64,000 nucleotides of DNA. It comes from Skermania sp. ID1734. Lineage in GTDB: Bacteria > Actinomycetota > Actinomycetes > Mycobacteriales > Mycobacteriaceae. A program made the translations under genes and the position numbers. The stretch is taken from positions 62,001-126,000 of the forward strand of contig NZ_VLIY01000003.1 of assembly GCF_007489285.1 (NCBI RefSeq), given 5' to 3'. Of this stretch, positions 1 to 47,506 are shown piece after piece. How positions within the stretch are numbered: position 1 is the stretch's first letter; each line of letters opens with the position of its first letter. Under the pieces are notes generated by a model. That model was not told the DNA's origin. It was given only the letters and a program-made list of their open reading frames with translations, and ran no database searches.

Positions 1-1293
<1,293 letters not shown>

Positions 1294-1294
1294 C

Positions 1295-1343
1295 GGCCGC
1301 GTGAGCATCGCAGCGCGGAACGCGCGAGGAGCGGAGCAAGGCC
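1295..1343 (-). repeat. Dispersed GC-rich repeat, single copy
   Basis: Read on the minus strand this 49-bp element contains GCTCCGCTCCTCGCG followed by CGCTGCGATGCTCACGCG. The same two blocks form the core of the units tandemly arrayed at 7029-7300 on the plus strand. It is bounded by GGCC on both sides and sits between two convergent genes (Pth2-like and thiolase), where it may act as a terminator-like structure. No protein is encoded. Confidence 0.75.
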
Positions 1344-1361
1344 AGAACCGACAGTTAAGCC

Positions 1362-2552
1362 CTATACCTGCACGATCACCGACGACCCGTGCCCGAACAG
1401 CCCCTGGTTGGCGGTGATCCCGACCCGCGCGCCCTCGACTTGACGTCCGGTGGCCTGCCCACGCAGCTGCCAAGTCAGCTCACAGACCTGGGCTAGTGCC
1501 TGCGCCGGGACCGCTTCACCGAAGCAGGCCAGCCCGCCCGAGGGGTTGACCGGGATACGGCCGCCCACGGAGGTGTCGCCCGCGCGCAGCAAATGCTCGG
1601 CCTCGCCGCGCTTGCACAGCGCGAGATCTTCGATCCAGTCCAGCTCGAGCGCGGTGGACAGGTCATACACCTCGGCGACGTCGACGTCCTCGGGCCCGAT
1701 GCCGGCCTCCTCGTAGGCCGCGTGACCGATCGACTCCTTGAACGTGCGCTCGGGGGCGGGCACGGCCGCGGTCGAGTCGGTGGAGAAGTTCGGCATGTCC
1801 ATGACGGTCTGTGGGAACGTCGGCGTGACAGTCGAAATCGCGCTTATCCGAACCGGATTGGTGAGGCCGCGCCGCCGGGCGAAGTCGAGCGATGTCAGCA
1901 GCACGGCCGCGCCGCCGTCGGAGGTGGCACAGATGTCGAGCAGGTGTAGCGGGTCCGCCACCACGGCCGACTCCAGCACGTCGGCGACGCTGACCTCTTT
2001 GCGGTAGCGCGCATTCGGGTTGTTCAGGCCGTGCTTGGCGTTTTTGACCTTCACGGCGGCGAAGTCTTCGGGCGTCGCGCCATAGAGGTCGATGCGTCGG
2101 CGCGCGTACAGCGCGAAATACGCCGGGTTCGTCATGCCGAGCAGCCGGAAACGCAGCCAGTCCGGGTCGTCCCAGCGCTCACCGGCGTTGGGCGCCAGGA
2201 AACCCTTGGGCGTGGTGTCGGCGCCGACCACGAGCGCGACGTCGCTGAGACCGGCCAGGATCCGCGCCCGCGCAGTGTCCAGTGCCTGGGCTCCCGTTGC
2301 GCAGGCGGCGTAGGACGTCGCCACCCGGGCGCCGTTCCAGCCGAGCGCCTGCGCGAACGTCGCGCCCGCGACGTATCCCCCGTATCCGTTGCGCACTGTT
2401 TCGCCGCCGACGACGAGGTCCACGTCGGTCCAGTTGATCCCCGCATCGGCCAGCGCACTGCGAGCGGCCGCGACGCCGTACTTCACAAACGGCTCACCCC
2501 ACTTGCCCCACGGGTGCATGCCGACTCCGGCGACGGCGACATCGTGGCTCAT
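1362..2552 (-). CDS. Thiolase-like lipid-transfer (Ltp/SCP2-type) protein
   Basis: A 396-residue thiolase-fold protein of the acetyl-CoA acetyltransferase/Ltp group. It shows SYAACATGAQAL (the usual nucleophile region), CATSDGGAAVLL, NPSGGLACFGEAVPA and a C-terminal NQGLFGHGSS. Proteins of this type often pair with a DUF35 OB-fold protein and act in thiolytic or retro-aldol chain shortening, including steroid side-chain removal. The ATG at 2552 follows the OB-fold gene with a 4-nt ATGA overlap, which fixes the start; the open frame running further upstream is an artefact. The KstR-like operator upstream of the pair suggests sterol-linked regulation. The exact substrate is unknown. Confidence 0.85.
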   Translation of the reverse strand: MSHDVAVAGVGMHPWGKWGEPFVKYGVAAARSALADAGINWTDVDLVVGGETVRNGYGGYVAGATFAQALGWNGARVATSYAACATGAQALDTARARILAGLSDVALVVGADTTPKGFLAPNAGERWDDPDWLRFRLLGMTNPAYFALYARRRIDLYGATPEDFAAVKVKNAKHGLNNPNARYRKEVSVADVLESAVVADPLHLLDICATSDGGAAVLLTSLDFARRRGLTNPVRISAISTVTPTFPQTVMDMPNFSTDSTAAVPAPERTFKESIGHAAYEEAGIGPEDVDVAEVYDLSTALELDWIEDLALCKRGEAEHLLRAGDTSVGGRIPVNPSGGLACFGEAVPAQALAQVCELTWQLRGQATGRQVEGARVGITANQGLFGHGSSVIVQV

Positions 2553-3097: not shown

Positions 3098-4927
3098 TCA
3101 GCCGGTGGCGCTGCTGTCGCCCAGCCACGCCGGACGGATGATGCGAATCCGCAGCTTGCGCTCGGAGTGGCGTTCCTCTTGGACGTCGCGCGCTCGCCCG
3201 GCCAGCAGCATGGTGGAGCTGATCAAGCCGACAACGCGGCGGGCATCGTTGCGGTCGACCACCGGCATGCGATCGATGTCGTTGGCGGCCATGTCGTTGG
3301 CCACCATGCGCAGGGTCTGATCCGAGTGCGCGACCCGCGGCGTGAGACAGAACTTTCCGACCGTCGCCGCGCCCCCGCCCTGATGGAACTCGGTTTCCAG
3401 GATCGTGCGGGTGATGACGCCGGCGAGTAGCCCCTCGACGTCGACGACCGGGTACAGCATCTGTCGTCGACCGGCGACGTTCGCGGGATCGTGGTCGGAG
3501 ATCGTGGCGAGGGCATCTTCGATGCTGAGGTCCGCTTCGAAGGTGACGATGTTGGTCTCCATCACTTCGTCGACGAACAAGATCTCGAGCGGGTCGACGT
3601 CGTATTCGCGGGTCAGGTGGAAGCCGCGTCGCGCGATCTTCTCGGTCAGCACGGAGCGCCGCAGCATCAGCACGGACACGGCGAAGGCGGTGGACGCGCC
3701 GATGATCATCGGGAACAGCGCGTCGAATCGCCCGGTCAACTCAGCGGCGAAAATGACGCCGGTTATGGGGGAGCGCATGACTCCGCCGAGTACGCCGGCC
3801 AGCGCGACGAGCGCCCAGAAGCCCGGTCCGACCGTCGGGAAAATGTGTGACTCCAACGCGCCGAGCGCGCCACCGATCATGAACATCGGCGCCAGCACAC
3901 CGCCGGAGGTGCCCGATCCCAGCGACAGCGACCAGATCAGCGTCTTGACGATGAGAATCCCGATGACGAGGTGCAATCCGATCGAGCCGTTGAGTTCGGC
4001 GCCGATCACGTTGTAGCCCACGCCCAGAGCCTGCGGGACGAACAGGCCGCCGATGCCGATCACGACGCCGCCGATTGCCGGCCACCACATCCAGTGCACC
4101 GGCAGCCGATGGAAGGCGTCCTCCGACGCGTACACGAGGGTGGTCGCCAGCACGGCGAGCAGGCCGGAAGCAATTCCCGAGGCGACCGCGAGACCGCAGG
4201 TAACCGCGGTGATGTGCAGCGCTCCGGTGGACGGGAACAGCGCGCCGGTGCCCAGAATGGGGTGGCGGATCAAGGTGGCGACCGTGACGGCGGCCGCCAC
4301 GGGCACGTAGCTGCGTGGCCGCCACTCGAATAGCAGCAGTTCGACCGCGAGCAAGATCGCCGCGAACGGCGTGTTGAAGGTGGCCGCCATGCCTGCCGCG
4401 GCGCCCGAGACCAGCAGTGTTTTGCGCTCGTCGGCGGTGAGCCGAAGGAACTGTGCCAGCAGCGAGCCCAGCGCCCCGCCGGTCATGATGATCGGACCTT
4501 CGGCACCGAACGGTCCGCCGGTACCGATGGCCACCGCCGACGCGATCGGCTTGAGCGCTGCCACCCGCGGTTGAACTGTGCTGCCGCCCAACAAGATCGA
4601 CTCGATGGCCTCCGGCATACCGTGCCCGCGGATTTTCTCCGAGCCGTAGCGTGCCATCACGCCGACGATCAAGCCGCCCACCACGGGCGCGCCCAAGATG
4701 AGCAACGGGTGGTGCGAAACGGCTCCCGGCGCGACCAGTTCGGTGCCGACGCGCTGGTAGAAGACCAGGTTCGTAATGAGGCCGATCAGCCGCAACAGCA
4801 CCCAGGCCGCTCCGGCGCCTACCGCGCCGACCGGTATCGCCAGCGCGGTGATGGTGAGCATGCGCGGCGTTGCAGTGAAGTCTGCAAGGTGTCGCACGTC
4901 GCGTGGTCGCTCGCCCGGGGCTGCCAC
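3098..4927 (-). CDS. ClC-family chloride channel/transporter with CBS domains
   Basis: A 609-residue membrane protein. Residues about 20-430 form the ClC transport core with many hydrophobic helices and the anion-binding signatures GPFGAEGPI (gating glutamate present) and GSGTSGGVLAP. Residues about 440-590 are a cytoplasmic CBS pair (DEVMETNIVTFE, then MPVVDRNDARRVVGLIS), which in the family senses nucleotides. In the AVELLLFEW segment a leucine appears to sit where proton-coupled members have their inner glutamate, so channel-like behaviour is possible, but this alignment was done by eye. GTG at 4927 has GGAGAAAAG just upstream. It is a single gene facing away from the ABC ATPase. Confidence 0.9.
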   Translation of the reverse strand: MAAPGERPRDVRHLADFTATPRMLTITALAIPVGAVGAGAAWVLLRLIGLITNLVFYQRVGTELVAPGAVSHHPLLILGAPVVGGLIVGVMARYGSEKIRGHGMPEAIESILLGGSTVQPRVAALKPIASAVAIGTGGPFGAEGPIIMTGGALGSLLAQFLRLTADERKTLLVSGAAAGMAATFNTPFAAILLAVELLLFEWRPRSYVPVAAAVTVATLIRHPILGTGALFPSTGALHITAVTCGLAVASGIASGLLAVLATTLVYASEDAFHRLPVHWMWWPAIGGVVIGIGGLFVPQALGVGYNVIGAELNGSIGLHLVIGILIVKTLIWSLSLGSGTSGGVLAPMFMIGGALGALESHIFPTVGPGFWALVALAGVLGGVMRSPITGVIFAAELTGRFDALFPMIIGASTAFAVSVLMLRRSVLTEKIARRGFHLTREYDVDPLEILFVDEVMETNIVTFEADLSIEDALATISDHDPANVAGRRQMLYPVVDVEGLLAGVITRTILETEFHQGGGAATVGKFCLTPRVAHSDQTLRMVANDMAANDIDRMPVVDRNDARRVVGLISSTMLLAGRARDVQEERHSERKLRIRIIRPAWLGDSSATG

Positions 4928-5087: not shown

Positions 5088-5912
5088 GTGCCGGTACCCG
5101 ATCCCGATTTGCTCGTCGATTTCACCGATGTGGTGATTCGCCGCTCCGGAGTGACGCTCGTCGGCCCGGTGAGTTGGCAAGTCGAACTCGATGAGAAATG
5201 GGTGGTCCTGGGACCCAACGGGGCCGGCAAGACCAGCCTGCTGCGGATCGCCGCCGCCGAGGTGCACCCGACGTCGGGGACCGCACACCTGCTGGGCGAG
5301 ACCCTCGGCCGCGTCGACGTTAGCGAACTGCGACCGCGCATCGGGCTGTCGTCGGCGGCGCTGGCCAGCCGAGTGCCGGCAGACGAGAAAGTGAGCGACC
5401 TGGTGGTGTCGGCGGGCTACGCGGTGCTCGGCCGCTGGCGCGAGCAATACGACCGTGTCGACACCGACCGCGCGGTAGATATGCTGGAAAGCCTTGGTGC
5501 CGAGCATCTTTCGGATAGATCCTATGGAACTTTGTCCGAGGGCGAGCGCAAGCGGGTGCTGATCGCGCGCGCCTTGATGACCGACCCAGAGTTGCTCCTG
5601 CTCGACGAACCGGCGGCAGGTCTGGATCTTGGTGGACGCGAAGAACTGGTCGCACGGCTGGCCCATTTGGCCGACGACCCGGATTCCCCCGCGACCGTTC
5701 TGGTGACCCATCACGTCGAGGAGATTCCGCCCAATTTCACCCATGGCCTGCTGCTCAAGGAAGGTCAAGTGGTGGCCCAAGGGCTGCTCGACGATGTGCT
5801 GACCAGTGCCAACCTCAGCGAGACGTTCAGTCAGGCGATCACGCTCGATCGCGCGGATGGGCGCTGGTTTGCGCGGCGGACCCGCGCGCCCGGCCGGCAC
5901 CGCGCGGGCTGA
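5088..5912 (+). CDS. ABC transporter ATP-binding protein
   Basis: A 274-residue ABC ATPase, orthologous by position to Rv3041c. Walker A is GPNGAGKTSLL (residue ~45), the signature is LSEGERKRVLIARAL, Walker B is LLLLDEPAAGLD, and the H-loop is in VTHHVEEI. The length and the HHVEEIPP ending resemble the iron-uptake (FhuC/ModF-like) group of soluble ATPases. No permease is adjacent, so its partner is unknown. The last codons and the TGA lie inside the first unit of a 54-bp tandem repeat, so the stop codon itself has been copied downstream. Confidence 0.9.
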   Translation: MPVPDPDLLVDFTDVVIRRSGVTLVGPVSWQVELDEKWVVLGPNGAGKTSLLRIAAAEVHPTSGTAHLLGETLGRVDVSELRPRIGLSSAALASRVPADEKVSDLVVSAGYAVLGRWREQYDRVDTDRAVDMLESLGAEHLSDRSYGTLSEGERKRVLIARALMTDPELLLLDEPAAGLDLGGREELVARLAHLADDPDSPATVLVTHHVEEIPPNFTHGLLLKEGQVVAQGLLDDVLTSANLSETFSQAITLDRADGRWFARRTRAPGRHRAG

Positions 5913-6117
5913 GACCGGCGTGGGTTCGCCGGTCCAGCCCACGCAAAGACCAACACAGCGGGCTGAGACCGGCGTGGGTTCGCCGGGCCAGCCCGCGCAA
6001 AGACCAACACCGCGGGCTGAGACCGCGTGGGTTCGCCGGGCCAGCCCGCGCAAAGACCAACACCGCGGGCTGAGACCGGCGTGGGTTCGCTGGACGAGCC
6101 CGCGCCCAGACAGCACC
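5904..6117. repeat. 54-bp tandem repeat, 4 units, spanning the ABC ATPase stop codon
   Basis: Units begin at 5904, 5958, 6012 and 6065 (periods 54, 54 and 53 bp; the third lost one base). Each begins GCGGGCTGAGACC, so each carries a copy of the ATPase stop codon. GCGGGCTG pairs with CAGCCCGC about 25 nt later to make a hairpin. The second and third units keep the perfect stem; the first has CAGCCCAC and the fourth is degraded (GAGCCCGC). The array fills the gap to the NUDIX gene. Open frames across it are repeat artefacts. Confidence 0.92.
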
Positions 6118-6148
6118 GCACGGATTAGCCGGGCGTAGCGTGCACGAT

Positions 6149-6949
6149 GTGACCGACACCGCCGTGCCCACGCCCAAAGATGCTGCGACCGTAATCCTGC
6201 TGCGCGACGCGGCGGCCGGGATCGAAGTGTTTCTGCTGCGTCGGGTCGGCGCCATGGCGTTCGCCGGCGGAATGACGGTCTTTCCCGGTGGCGGTGTCGA
6301 TCCCTCTGACGCCGACACCTCCATCGGCTGGGCGGGACCACCGGTCTCCTGGTGGGCGGACCGGTTCGGCGTCGACGAGCCGCGCGCGAAGGCGCTGGTG
6401 TGCGCCGCCGTTCGCGAGACGTTCGAGGAGTGCGGTGTGCTGCTGGCCGGTCCGTCGCCGGACACGGTTGTCGCCGACACGTCCGGATACCGCTCGGCCC
6501 GTGAGTTATTGGAGAAGCGCGAACTCAGCTTCGCCGATTTTCTCGCAGCCGAAAAGCTCGTACTTCGTGCGGATCTGCTGCGGCCCTGGGCGAACTGGAT
6601 CACTCCGGTGGGGGAGCCGCGTCGTTATGACACTCGCTTCTTCGTCGCCGTTGTTCCGGCCGGTCAACGCGCCGACGGGCAGACTCCCGAGGCGGCCGCA
6701 GTGGCATGGGCGACGCCGCAGGCCGCGATCGACGAGTGGCGGGCCGGCAGAAGCATCCTGTTGCCGCCCACGTGGACGCAGCTCAACACGTTGGCGCAGT
6801 ACGCCGACACCGACGCGGTCCTGGCGGCAGACCCGCGAATCGAACCAATCGAACCGACCCTGCACACCGTCGACGGCCAGCTGACGGTGACATTCCCCGG
6901 CCAGGACGGCTACTACGCCGAGGGGCCGCATCCCTGGAGCAGCCGCTAG
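6149..6949 (+). CDS. NUDIX hydrolase
   Basis: A 266-residue NUDIX-fold hydrolase, positional orthologue of Rv3040c. The Nudix box is split as in this subfamily: the glycine part FPGGGVDPSD is near residue 49 and the catalytic helix REtfEEcGvLL (R-E-T-F-E-E-C-G) follows about 40 residues later. The family hydrolyses nucleoside diphosphate-X or CoA-type substrates; the substrate here is unknown. GTG at 6149 gives VTDTAVPTPKDAATV, which fits the start I recall for the orthologue; GTG at 6140 is the alternative. No clear ribosome-binding site is visible, because the upstream DNA is the repeat array. Confidence 0.88.
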   Translation: MTDTAVPTPKDAATVILLRDAAAGIEVFLLRRVGAMAFAGGMTVFPGGGVDPSDADTSIGWAGPPVSWWADRFGVDEPRAKALVCAAVRETFEECGVLLAGPSPDTVVADTSGYRSARELLEKRELSFADFLAAEKLVLRADLLRPWANWITPVGEPRRYDTRFFVAVVPAGQRADGQTPEAAAVAWATPQAAIDEWRAGRSILLPPTWTQLNTLAQYADTDAVLAADPRIEPIEPTLHTVDGQLTVTFPGQDGYYAEGPHPWSSR

Positions 6950-6974
6950 CGCTCTTCGGCGTCGAGCGCATAGA

Positions 6975-7008
6975 TTTCGTCGTGAATTGGCACCTGGCGA
7001 CGACGAAA
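6975..7008. terminator. Hairpin downstream of the NUDIX gene
   Basis: TTTCGTCGT (6975-6983) and ACGACGAAA (7000-7008) are perfect 9-bp inverted repeats with a 16-nt loop, 26 nt after the stop codon. There is no long T tract beyond the arm, as is common for mycobacterial terminators. Confidence 0.55.
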
Positions 7009-7028
7009 AGTATGCGTTCGCCGGTGGA

Positions 7029-7300
7029 GCCGCTGCGATGCTCACGCGCGGCCTGACCGCCGGGTCACTTGGCTGGTCAGCTCCACGCGCTCCGCTCCTC
7101 GCGGCTGCGCCGCTGCGATGCTCACGCGCGGCCTGACCGCAGTGTCCCATTGGCCGGTCAGCTCCACGCGCTCCGCTCCTCGCGGCTGCGCCGCTGCGAT
7201 GCTCACGCGCGGCCTGACCGGCAGTGTTGGTTGGCCGGTCAGCTCCACGCGCTCCGCTCCTCGCGGCTGCGCCGCTGCGATGCTCACGCGCGGCCTGACC
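7029..7300 (+). repeat. Array of 64-bp repeats separated by variable 16-17-bp spacers
   Basis: This array occupies most of the 370-bp gene-free stretch between the NUDIX gene and echA17. Full units are 7075-7138, 7156-7219 and 7237-7300; a 5'-truncated unit is 7029-7058. Each full unit starts GGTCAG and ends CTGACC, so adjacent units form hairpins across the spacer. Spacers (7059-7074, 7139-7155, 7220-7236) are related but differ. The core is the same sequence as the single inverted copy at 1295-1343. The region encodes no gene; frames through it are open only because the unit lacks stops. Confidence 0.9.
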
Positions 7301-7319
7301 GGCAGTAGAGTTCGCTGTC

Positions 7320-8099
7320 ATGCCCGAGTTCGTGAGCCTGGCGGTATCCGACGGCATCGGCACTATCCGAATCGACCGGCCTCCGGTGAATGCGATCACC
7401 GTGCAATGCCATCGCGAACTGGTGGCGGCCGCACGAGCAGCCAGCGAGGATCCCGACGTGGCAGCGGTGATCATCGACGGCGGCCCCAAAGTTTTCTCGG
7501 CCGGTGACGATGTCGCCGAACTGGCGACCATCACCGCGAGTCAGATGCAATTGATGGCCGTCGACGTGCAGAAAGCACTCGGCGCGGTCGCGGAGATCCC
7601 TAAGCCCACGGTCGCCGCCATCAGCACCTACGCGCTGGGCAGCGGCCTCGAGATTGCGCTGTGCGCCGATCGTCGGGTGATCGGCGACAACGTCAAGCTT
7701 GCGATGTCGCAAGTACTGGTGGGCCTGATCCCCGGCGGCGGCGGCACCCAGCGCCTGACTCAGCTGGTCGGACCGAGCGTGGCCAAGGATCTGATATTCA
7801 CGGGCCGGTTCGTCGAGCCGGACGAGGCGTTACGGATCGGCCTGGTCGACGCGGTTGTCGCGCCGGACGACGTCTACACCAGCGCGCGTGAGTGGGCCGC
7901 GCAGTTTGTCGGCGGCCCAGCCCGTGCGCTCGCGGCGGCCAAGTCCGCGATCGACACCGGCCTCTCCGCGACGGCCGCGGCGGGCTTCGAGGCCGAACGG
8001 GAAAGTTGTGCGGCGTTGTTCGCGACCGACGATGCGCGCGCCGGGATGCAATCTTTCCTCGCCGATGGTCCCGGTCGGGCGCCGTTCGTGGGCAGATAA
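7320..8099 (+). CDS. echA17: Enoyl-CoA hydratase/isomerase-family protein (EchA17-like)
   Basis: A 259-residue crotonase-fold protein. The oxyanion-hole segments FSAGDDVAEL (~59) and ALGSGLEIAL (~105) and GLIPGGGGTQRL (~136) are present. By position it matches Rv3039c (EchA17), expected to act on acyl-CoA thioesters in beta-oxidation. Both glutamates that activate water in classical hydratases look substituted: Gln131 in MSQVLVGLIPGG and Asp157 in SVAKDLIF. It may therefore be an isomerase, hydrolase or altered hydratase. ATG at 7320 begins MPEFVSL, as in the orthologue. The gene starts 19 nt after the 64-bp repeat array, so its promoter must lie in or before that array. Confidence 0.88.
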   Translation: MPEFVSLAVSDGIGTIRIDRPPVNAITVQCHRELVAAARAASEDPDVAAVIIDGGPKVFSAGDDVAELATITASQMQLMAVDVQKALGAVAEIPKPTVAAISTYALGSGLEIALCADRRVIGDNVKLAMSQVLVGLIPGGGGTQRLTQLVGPSVAKDLIFTGRFVEPDEALRIGLVDAVVAPDDVYTSAREWAAQFVGGPARALAAAKSAIDTGLSATAAAGFEAERESCAALFATDDARAGMQSFLADGPGRAPFVGR

Positions 8100-37443: not shown

Positions 37444-38943
37444 ATGACTGATCTCCTCGACTACACCGACGTCCTCGATCGCTACGAACCGGTGCTCGGG
37501 ATGGAAGTGCATGTCGAGCTGGGCACGGCGACCAAGATGTTCTGCGGATGCCCAACGACGTTCGGGGCCGAGCCGAACACGCAGGTCTGCCCGGTGTGCC
37601 TGGGCCTGCCGGGAAGCCTGCCGGTGGTCAACCAGGCCGCGGTGGAGTCGGCGGTCCGGATCGGGCTTGCGTTGAACTGCGCCATCACGCCGTGGGGCCG
37701 CTTCGCGCGCAAGAACTACTTTTATCCGGACCAGCCGAAGAACTACCAGATCTCTCAGTACGACGAGCCCATCGCCACCAACGGCCACCTCGATGTGGTG
37801 CTCGATGGCGGGAGCACCTTCCGCGTCGACATCGAGCGCGCGCACATGGAGGAAGACACCGGTAAGTCGTTGCACGTCGGTGGCGCGACCGGCCGGATAC
37901 ACGGCGCGAGCCATTCGCTGCTCGACTACAACCGGGCCGGTGTGCCGCTCATCGAGATCGTCACCAAACCGATCACCGGTGCTGGCGAACGCGCACCCGA
38001 GGTCGCCCGGGCCTACGTCACTGCCCTGCGGGACCTGTTGAAGGCGTTGGGAGTTTCCGACGTCAAGATGGAGCAGGGTTCGCTGCGCTGCGATGCCAAC
38101 GTTTCGCTGATGCCCATCGGCGCAGCGGAATTCGGCACCCGTACCGAGACGAAGAACGTCAACTCGCTGCGCAGCGTCGAGACCGCCGTACGGTTCGAAA
38201 TGCGCCGCCAGGGCACGGTTTTGGCCAACGGCGGCACCATTGTGCAAGAGACTCGGCACTTCCAGGAGTCCGACGGCACCACCTCGCCGGGCCGGCGCAA
38301 GGAAACCGCCGAGGATTACCGCTACTTCCCGGAGCCTGACCTCGAACCTGTTGCACCGGACGCTGATTGGGTGGAGTCGCTGCGCGTCACGATTCCGGAG
38401 ATGCCGTGGTTGCGGCGCGCGCGCATTCAGCAGGAGTGGGGAGTTTCCGACGAGGTGATGCGTGACCTGGTCAACGCGGGCGCGCTGGATCTCATCCTGG
38501 CGACCGTGGACGCGGGCGCGCCGGCGAAGGAGGCGCGCTCGTGGTGGGTCGCCTACCTGACCGAACGGGCGAACGCGAACGACGTGGCGCTCGACGAGTT
38601 GCCGATTACGCCGAAGCAGGTGGCTGCGGTCATCGCCCTCGTGGACAGCGGCAAGATCAGCAACAAGATCGCCCGTCAGGTAATCGATTTCGTGCTGGCC
38701 GGCGAAGGTGAACCGGCCGACATCGTCGAGGCGCGGTCGCTCGGCATGGTGAGCGACGAGGGCGCCCTGCAGGCCGAGGTCGACAAGGCGCTGGCGGCGA
38801 ACCCCGACATTGCCGACAAGATCCGCAGCGGCAGGGTGCAGGCGGCCGGAAAGATTGTGGGCGACGTGATGAAGGCCACGAAAGGCCAGGCCGACGCGGC
38901 GCGGGTCCGCGAGTTGGTTCTCGCGGCCTGCGGCGCGCAATAG
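37444..38943 (+). CDS. gatB: Asp/Glu-tRNA amidotransferase subunit B
   Basis: A 499-residue GatB, which phosphorylates the tRNA-bound glutamate or aspartate before amidation. It has [12 protein letters not shown], the zinc-binding CGCPTTF...CPVCLGLPG cysteines, [18 protein letters not shown], and the C-terminal YqeY-like tail. ATG at 37444 is preferred to TTG at 37438. The last 14 codons and the stop are the first unit of a 53-bp tandem repeat that continues for 150 bp beyond the gene. Confidence 0.96.
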
Positions 38944-39092
38944 GCACAGTGGCGCGGGTCCGCGAGTTGGTTCTCGCGGCCTGCGGCGCGCAATAGGCAC
39001 AGCGGCGCGGGTCCGCGAGTTGGTTCTCGCGGCCTGCGGCGCGCAATAGGCACAGCGGCGCGGGTCCGCGAGTTGGTTCTCGCGGCCTGCGG
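38899..39092. repeat. 53-bp tandem repeat spanning the gatB stop codon
   Basis: Units start at 38899, 38952, 39005 and 39058 with a period of exactly 53 bp; the last is 35 bp. Copies are almost identical. Each unit holds the hairpin CCGCGAG-TTGGTT-CTCGCGG, which in the first copy is coding sequence for the last residues of GatB, followed by the TAG. The period is not a multiple of three, as expected outside a gene. Frames across it on either strand are artefacts. Confidence 0.95.
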
Positions 39093-46912: not shown

Positions 46913-47412
46913 GTACGTCACACACCCTGAGTGTGCTTGTCGAAGACAAGCCCGGCGTGCTCGCGCGGGTGGCCGCGCTGTTCTCCCGCCGCGGGTTCAA
47001 CATCGAGTCGCTCGCGGTGGGCGGCACTGAGATCCCGGACATATCCCGCATGACCATCGTGGTGACCGTCGAGGAACTGCCGCTCGAACAGGTGACCAAG
47101 CAGCTCAACAAGCTGATCAACGTGATCAAGATCGTCGAGCAGGACACCGAAGCCTCGGTCGCGCGTGAACTGATCCTGGTGAAGGTGCGGGCCGACGCCA
47201 GCGTGCGCACTCAGGTGGTCGAGGCCGTTACGCTGTTCCGAGCGAAGGTCATCGACGTGTCTCCGGACTCGTTGACGATCGAGGCCACCGGTACTCGGTC
47301 GAAGCTCGACGCGCTGCTACGCATGCTCGAGCCGTACGGCATCCGCGAGATCGTGCAATCCGGCGTCGTCGCCATGGGGCGCGGTCCCAAATCAATCACG
47401 GCCGCCCGCTAG
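46909..47412 (+). CDS. ilvN: Acetolactate synthase small regulatory subunit
   Basis: A 167-residue regulatory subunit with an N-terminal ACT domain ([34 protein letters not shown]) and a C-terminal ALS_ss domain. It binds valine and confers feedback inhibition on IlvB. GTG at 46909 overlaps the ilvB stop. The stop codon TAG is in the first unit of a 35-bp tandem repeat that separates it from ilvC. Confidence 0.96.
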
Positions 47413-47490
47413 CGACGGCCACCGAGTCCACCACGGCCGCCCGCTAGCGACGGCCGCCGAGTCCATCACGGCCGCCCGCTAGCGACGGCC
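47398..47490. repeat. 35-bp tandem repeat spanning the ilvN stop codon
   Basis: Units start at 47398, 47433 and 47468 (35-bp period; the last has 23 matching bases). Each contains ACGGCCGCCCGCTAGCGACG; the TAG in the first is the ilvN stop and lies at the centre of the dyad CGCTAGCG flanked by GGCCG and CGGCC. The array lies inside the ilvBNC operon, so it may attenuate or process the message between ilvN and ilvC. Confidence 0.92.
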
Positions 47491-47506
47491 GCGAAACAAC
47501 CTTTAG

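Follow-up and report, generated by a model that had tools for sequence, protein, structure and literature searches.

An array of short repeats occupies positions 7029–7300 of the window, the whole 64,000-nucleotide stretch of the Skermania sp. ID1734 genome that was analysed, and lies between a gene that we take to be NUDIX-like and an echA17-like enoyl-CoA hydratase gene. The features of the region, numbered by window position, are as follows.

1288–1351, minus strand: related single element with different arms, overlapping the last bases of a plus-strand gene (stop at 1293)
6140–6949, plus strand: presumed NUDIX-like gene upstream of the array (open reading frame; adjoins echA17 in most relatives)
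7029–7058, plus strand: 3′-terminal 30-bp fragment of the 64-bp unit, identical to the corresponding part of the full units
7059–7074, plus strand: spacer 1, 16 bp
7075–7138, plus strand: 64-bp unit 1 (15-nt arm, 35-nt conserved core, 14-nt arm)
7139–7155, plus strand: spacer 2, 17 bp
7156–7219, plus strand: 64-bp unit 2
7220–7236, plus strand: spacer 3, 17 bp
7237–7300, plus strand: 64-bp unit 3
7306–7311, plus strand: TAGAGT, candidate −10 box of a putative echA17 promoter of the leaderless type
7320–8099, plus strand: echA17-like enoyl-CoA hydratase gene that follows the array (open reading frame, supported by relatives; the name is that of the original prediction)

The array had been described from its letters as identical 64-bp units, bounded by GGTCAG and CTGACC and separated by spacers unlike one another. 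Both observations hold: three such units are present with 0 differences between neighbours, and the spacers of 16, 17 and 17 bp have partly common edges and differ most in their middles. Tandem Repeats Finder (TRF) reports a period of 81, 3.4 copies and a 94% match, and a 25-bp sub-motif of the unit, searched for with ≤3 mismatches allowed, was found at 4 places in the window, whereas 100 shuffles yielded 0.00 on average. A CRISPR-like array was set aside on the repeat layout alone: the spacers share edge parts, and units are also dispersed singly. Plasmid and phage collections contained no match to positions 7069–7306. The 79 bp separating the NUDIX stop from the array (6950–7028) contain a 24-nt inverted repeat (83%) and are part of extra sequence absent from relatives.

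Other repeats are found in the same window. A copy of the core had also been predicted on the opposite strand at 1295–1343; the core is indeed shared (blastn against the own genome aligns 40 nt at 88% identity), but it belongs to a related element with different arms, which precedes a convergent gene ending at 1362. A second tandem array (5903–6119; ~54 bp × 4.1, palindromic by eye) extends from where the preceding gene ends up to the NUDIX gene, and an own-genome search at E ≤ 0.01 matched it only to its own locus. Further TRF arrays lie at 38896–39092 (53 bp × 3.7, 98% match) and 47395–47492 (35 bp × 2.8, 95% match).

The echA17 array is one member of a dispersed family. Searched against its own genome (G000; 5,121,956 bases in 56 contigs, the sole genome of its genus compared), one unit gave 68 hits by blastn at E ≤ 10 (chance may account for the weakest), and nhmmer recovered 60 copies from 38 own-genome stretches together with the window. 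These copies group into 35 element or array sites, of which 18 hold at least two copies. As judged with a crude gene caller, 33 of the 35 sites are intergenic and 2 fall inside genes; the element is thus not confined to the position at which it was first noticed. Among the arrays compared, periods range from 69 to 86 bp and are most commonly 77; L068, like the window array, has a period of 81. A core-pattern search of 401 genomes from the taxonomic family matched 8, with 41 matches in G000 and 1 to 6 in each of the seven others. For comparative analyses, 44 representative loci were assembled, comprising 28 of the 35 G000 sites (core recognised by regular expression) and 16 sites of other genomes. 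At one locus (L066), two arrays with window-like arms lie in opposite orientation (2033–2152, minus strand; 4030–4148, plus strand) and flank an open reading frame resembling a membrane protein; the next frame resembles a response regulator.

The unit is built around a core of ~35 nt (29 to 53 nt in variants), consisting of CTCCGCTCCTCGC, a variable stretch and GCTGCGATGCTCA, with an arm of 15 nt on one side and one of 14 nt on the other. The arms vary by locus yet tend to remain complementary: duplexes between the two arms of one copy average −16.1 kcal/mol, against −11.9 kcal/mol (s.d. 0.42) with arms swapped among the 44 loci (0 of 10,000). The best partner of a 5′ arm is its own 3′ arm in only 7 of 44 cases, with a median rank of 8.5. 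A 13-pair structure, proposed by inspection, was evaluated on an alignment of the 26 loci (of 44) with 35-nt cores. It pairs 68.6% of cells against 52.5% when shuffled, a measure on which the slid controls favour the structure by construction, and its covariation score is 0.338 against 0.121 (s.d. 0.019) shuffled (0 of 500) and ≤0.135 when slid. The arms and apical loop covary. Pairs changed on both sides are not above shuffles in this 26-sequence alignment (10 versus 9.1), from which RNAalifold retrieved six conserved core pairs only, none with changes on both sides, and no covarying pair unaided. The apical hairpin forms in part of the cores; several cores that come from other genomes, or are short or long, form none or another hairpin.

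These data refine the pairing scheme originally drawn for the array, in which neighbouring unit ends pair across each spacer into alternating hairpins. The sequence does allow pairing across the spacer, but the scheme is incomplete, for GGTCAG and CTGACC pair inside one unit too, and in single copies elsewhere only this within-unit pairing is possible. Alternating hairpins can form, but covariation favours within-unit pairing and neither fold energy reaches significance (z −0.64 for a single unit and −1.58 for the array, both unremarkable). Base pairs show no G–U excess (12 GU versus 14.4 shuffled; AC 9 versus 8.5), and RNA and DNA hairpins are therefore not discriminated. The covarying stems would also suit a structured cis-acting RNA, an attenuator or a device for Shine–Dalgarno sequestration that regulates downstream genes, with the unit conserved for its RNA function; in copies at stop/start overlaps of the DTGA type, the 3′ arm (GAAGGA, GGGAGG) lies at the position expected of a Shine–Dalgarno sequence and pairs with the 5′ arm. 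Such an RNA is improbable, in our judgement, given the missing G–U excess and a search of 8 sources against Rfam that found only two tRNAs and no match to the element. In addition, no bias of orientation relative to genes is evident in the tally of sites (a tally only, with no statistic), and at echA17 the probable leaderless start lies downstream of the array, which would therefore probably not be part of that mRNA.

We then compared the sequences on either side of the element. In a free-register test of 39 loci, five with partial copies being left out, the similarity of left and right flanks was reached by 0 of 20,000 shuffles (110 of 20,000 for the 23 G000 loci, among which the partial next unit of L049 and L053 inflates the score, and 1 of 20,000 for the 16 others). 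An extra set, the 10 of 32 loci with the core by regular expression, gave a mean of 6.6 versus 5.2 (21 of 20,000), with one member (L218) representing the same site as L142 and the nine loci of genus g2 scoring 3 to 8. The boundaries of a 64-bp body and 13-nt flanks, and the exclusion of genus g2, were picked after the free-register result. The fixed-register set of 37 loci consists of the 44 minus the five partial-copy loci, L049 and L053; removal of the nine g2 loci leaves 28. In these 28, the 13 nt to the left and right of the body share 4.64 of 13 positions at the predicted offset, against 3.64 (s.d. 0.28) shuffled (0 of 4000), and the next-lowest value among offsets −8 to 8 is found at +1 (261 of 4000). 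When the g2 loci are retained (37 loci), 17 of 4000 shuffles reach the value at the predicted offset, and +1 (30 of 4000) and −5 (69 of 4000) are low too; the nine g2 loci contain no long perfect flanking repeat. Two copies are flanked by perfect repeats: at the zwf–opcA junction of G393 (L141), the element is bracketed by TCGATGATCACGG (13/13), and in G062 (L142) the flanking repeat is a perfect 12/12. Both lie one base off the predicted offset and so are not the drivers of its peak.

Flanks could also be alike over 13 nt because translation signals (DTGA, start codons) are selected at the two ends of MIRU-type sites, with no target duplication, and DTGA does fall within several of the better matches (L065, L074, L139, L145). 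We consider this unlikely, although less so than a cis-acting RNA: the perfect 12–13-nt repeats of L141 and L142 reach well past DTGA, L056 matches at 9 of 13 positions with no DTGA, and shuffling among loci, which keeps part of the shared DTGA, still gave 0 of 4000 at the predicted offset for the 28 loci. A signature of target-site duplication, as known from MITEs, is found at the level of the family, in L141, L142 and the fixed-register excess. MITEs and REP-type palindromic elements are short, dispersed and hairpin-forming, with flanking direct repeats. The present family has these same properties; it differs in that some subfamilies have complementary arms that do not lie at the ends.

Junctions with and without the element were also identified (10 of 14 junctions parsed). 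The zwf and opcA genes overlap directly, without the element, in G067, G381 and G405 (L257, L254 and L260), and G084 carries a different MIRU-like unit at the same point. At four further zwf–opcA loci (L251, L252, L253, L261), short extra sequence resembles the element ends without the hairpin core and may represent element remnants. Between argB and argD, the element is present in G000 and G062, and another MIRU-like one in G084; in the other 23 of 25 relatives, none was recognised in the 60 nt displayed. In G062, the element of L142 (~1462–1560) lies in frame in the N-terminus of a biotin carboxylase gene and adds 26 residues; five sister genomes are without it but differ in the N-terminus. 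Three perfectly identical units with a truncated end unit are typical of slippage, as would be expected of an ordinary VNTR, that is, a local, immobile minisatellite whose likeness to sequences elsewhere reflects the shared ancestry of old repeats. The 35 dispersed sites, the occurrence of the same gene pairs (argB–argD, zwf–opcA) with and without the element, and the flanking repeats at fixed ends disfavour this possibility and leave it with little probability.

With 13-nt direct repeats in the flanks, at the predicted ends of a 64-bp body, the unit looks like a mobile body and the spacer like target-derived sequence. In our reading, the 64-bp body and 13 bp of target-like sequence together complete the common 77-bp repeat. 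The original proposal that the unit, and not the spacer, is being copied is strengthened by a body dispersed genome-wide with direct repeats at its ends over many loci; as a whole, that interpretation is partly supported. The duplication signal belongs to the family, and the window array itself has a truncated left unit and spacers of 16–17 rather than 13 bp, which makes it an outlier in spacer length, as is L068. Across all arrays, spacers differ at 51 of 180 positions and units at 13 of 1139, a contrast that is overstated because the left 'spacer' of the first copy is chromosomal flank. A hand count restricted to two-sided spacers gives 12 of 70 against 2 of 447 for units, with differences of 10/20 in the window, 0/20 in L049, 1/20 in L076 and 1/10 in L072. 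As 10 of the 12 differences come from the window, strong internal divergence is special to its array and not general. It could stem from drift of old target copies between homogenised bodies, or from repeated insertion.

MIRUs were reportedly described by Supply et al. in 1997. They range in size from 46 to 101 bp and are dispersed, often tandem and intergenic. The present family shares their hallmark position. In 8 of 14 loci checked (L054, L055, L057, L059, L064, L065, L074, L077), an open reading frame runs through the core and ends in TCATGA over the start of the next gene; in L063 it ends likewise in GCATGA. Five of the eight (L055, L057, L059, L064, L074) have at their other end an ATGA that contains the upstream gene's stop. 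Neighbouring genes, named by sequence, presumably include argB–argD, rodA–pbpA and recC–recB. Some copies are in reverse orientation, and the reverse strand of L141 (G393) reads as a chain of short frames overlapping at GTGA between the zwf-like and opcA-like genes. Sequences following DTGA are also similar in 11 loci (identity 38 versus 25.4, 4 of 10,000; common prefix 12 versus 7.3, 337 of 10,000), in a test designed after inspection and with two-copy loci represented by the gene-adjacent copy. No such overlap is present at the window array, which has a stop at 6949 on one side and a start at 7320 on the other.

In the accessible part of a review (PMC12548453), MIRUs are said to be apparently mobile, to insert at start codons, to contain a reading frame coupled at −4 nt, and to occur in many mycobacteria; the start-codon insertion and coupled frame are what 8 of our 14 loci display. 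The accessible part of PMC4213456 places the MIRUs of the senX3–regX3 region in M. leprae and the M. tuberculosis complex only, and the family seen here fits the wider distribution given in the review. Tandem units of 77 bp, the commonest period here, are likewise recorded for MIRUs in the accessible parts of PMC2453075 and PMC4213456, and a 2008 stem-loop survey, in the portion available, lists an M. tuberculosis family containing MIRU repeats (PMC2267715). The element class, MIRU, is already known, and the array is probably a variant of it. There are also differences: the window array has an 81-bp period, precedes a promoter and is not at DTGA, and the core is weakly similar to the M. tuberculosis-style units in G084. 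Against M. tuberculosis-style units of 77/53 bp, between 8 and 287 of 2000 shuffles score as high as the core, depending on the pair, which is no more than suggestive of homology between the core and the M. tuberculosis-style MIRU unit. We take L212 and L256 to be units of that style. Our literature search found neither a 64 + 13 architecture nor arm covariation reported for MIRUs, nor a paper linking MIRUs with target-site duplication; subscription papers were mostly beyond its reach, and such reports may exist in print.

At echA17, the array abuts a putative promoter. The TAGAGT box lies 8 nt before the ATG, and the array ends 5 bp before the box. Relatives of the locus numbered 30, of which 5 were not alignable at the start; in 22 of the remaining 25, a TANNNT box is found 6–10 nt before the start, compared with 0.7% at random window positions. 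This conserved spacing makes a leaderless promoter likely. The box is conserved across genera (L163–L184), and in L177 and L178 its TAG comes immediately after the last NUDIX codon in the alignment, where it may also serve as the stop codon. The gap between NUDIX and echA17, start codon included, measures 15–83 nt in 24 of the 30 relatives and 107 in 1; it is 141–189 in 2, where the NUDIX match ends early, and >600 nt in 3. In G000 it is 370 bp. Core words are absent within 400 nt upstream of echA17 in all 30 relatives, and the gap in G001 holds a short GCGAGCGGAGCGA resembling part of the reversed core. A search of genome contigs for EchA17 returned 36 loci, with a single Mycobacterium record at 28% identity; none was used.

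The best precedent for a function of the array is probably found in M. tuberculosis, in tandem repeats that precede leaderless promoters; according to the accessible part of PMC12817950, their copy number varies and an influence on promoter strength has been proposed. The echA17 array resembles them in standing directly upstream of a leaderless-type promoter and differs in that its repeat unit contains no TANNNT (−10) box and the array is known from one genome. By analogy, the array possibly tunes the strength of the echA17 promoter through its copy number, which would be its most likely present effect, if it has any.

Taken as a whole, the array probably arose when a short mobile element of the MIRU type expanded in tandem beside a promoter, possibly with copy-number tuning. 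In the mechanism we propose, the 64-bp body would insert as a whole, with stop/start overlaps (DTGA) and promoter edges either preferred as targets or the places where insertions survive. Each insertion would duplicate ~13 bp of target. Arrays would then grow by slippage or unequal exchange into body–spacer–body repeats, in which the spacer, as an old target copy, would be free to drift and the body would stay alike. At echA17, the array would have landed directly upstream of the leaderless-type −10 box. A broader proposal, which we find credible while leaning slightly against it, is that MIRU-type repeats in general are transposable hairpin elements with a 64-bp body, covarying arms and a 13–14-bp target duplication, that their arrays arise from body plus target copy (64 + 13 = 77), that some enzyme moves the body, and that the echA17 array represents the capture of a leaderless promoter.

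Mycobacterial strain typing is based in part on MIRU loci, whose spread is described, in the accessible part of PMC12548453, only as apparent mobility. A 64-bp body with 13-bp target copies would offer a concrete and testable transposition model that explains the 77-bp repeat length. If true, the spacers of MIRU-VNTR loci would be insertion footprints. The echA17 locus further suggests that members of such a family can lie right beside a leaderless promoter, with copy number as a possible genetic dial.
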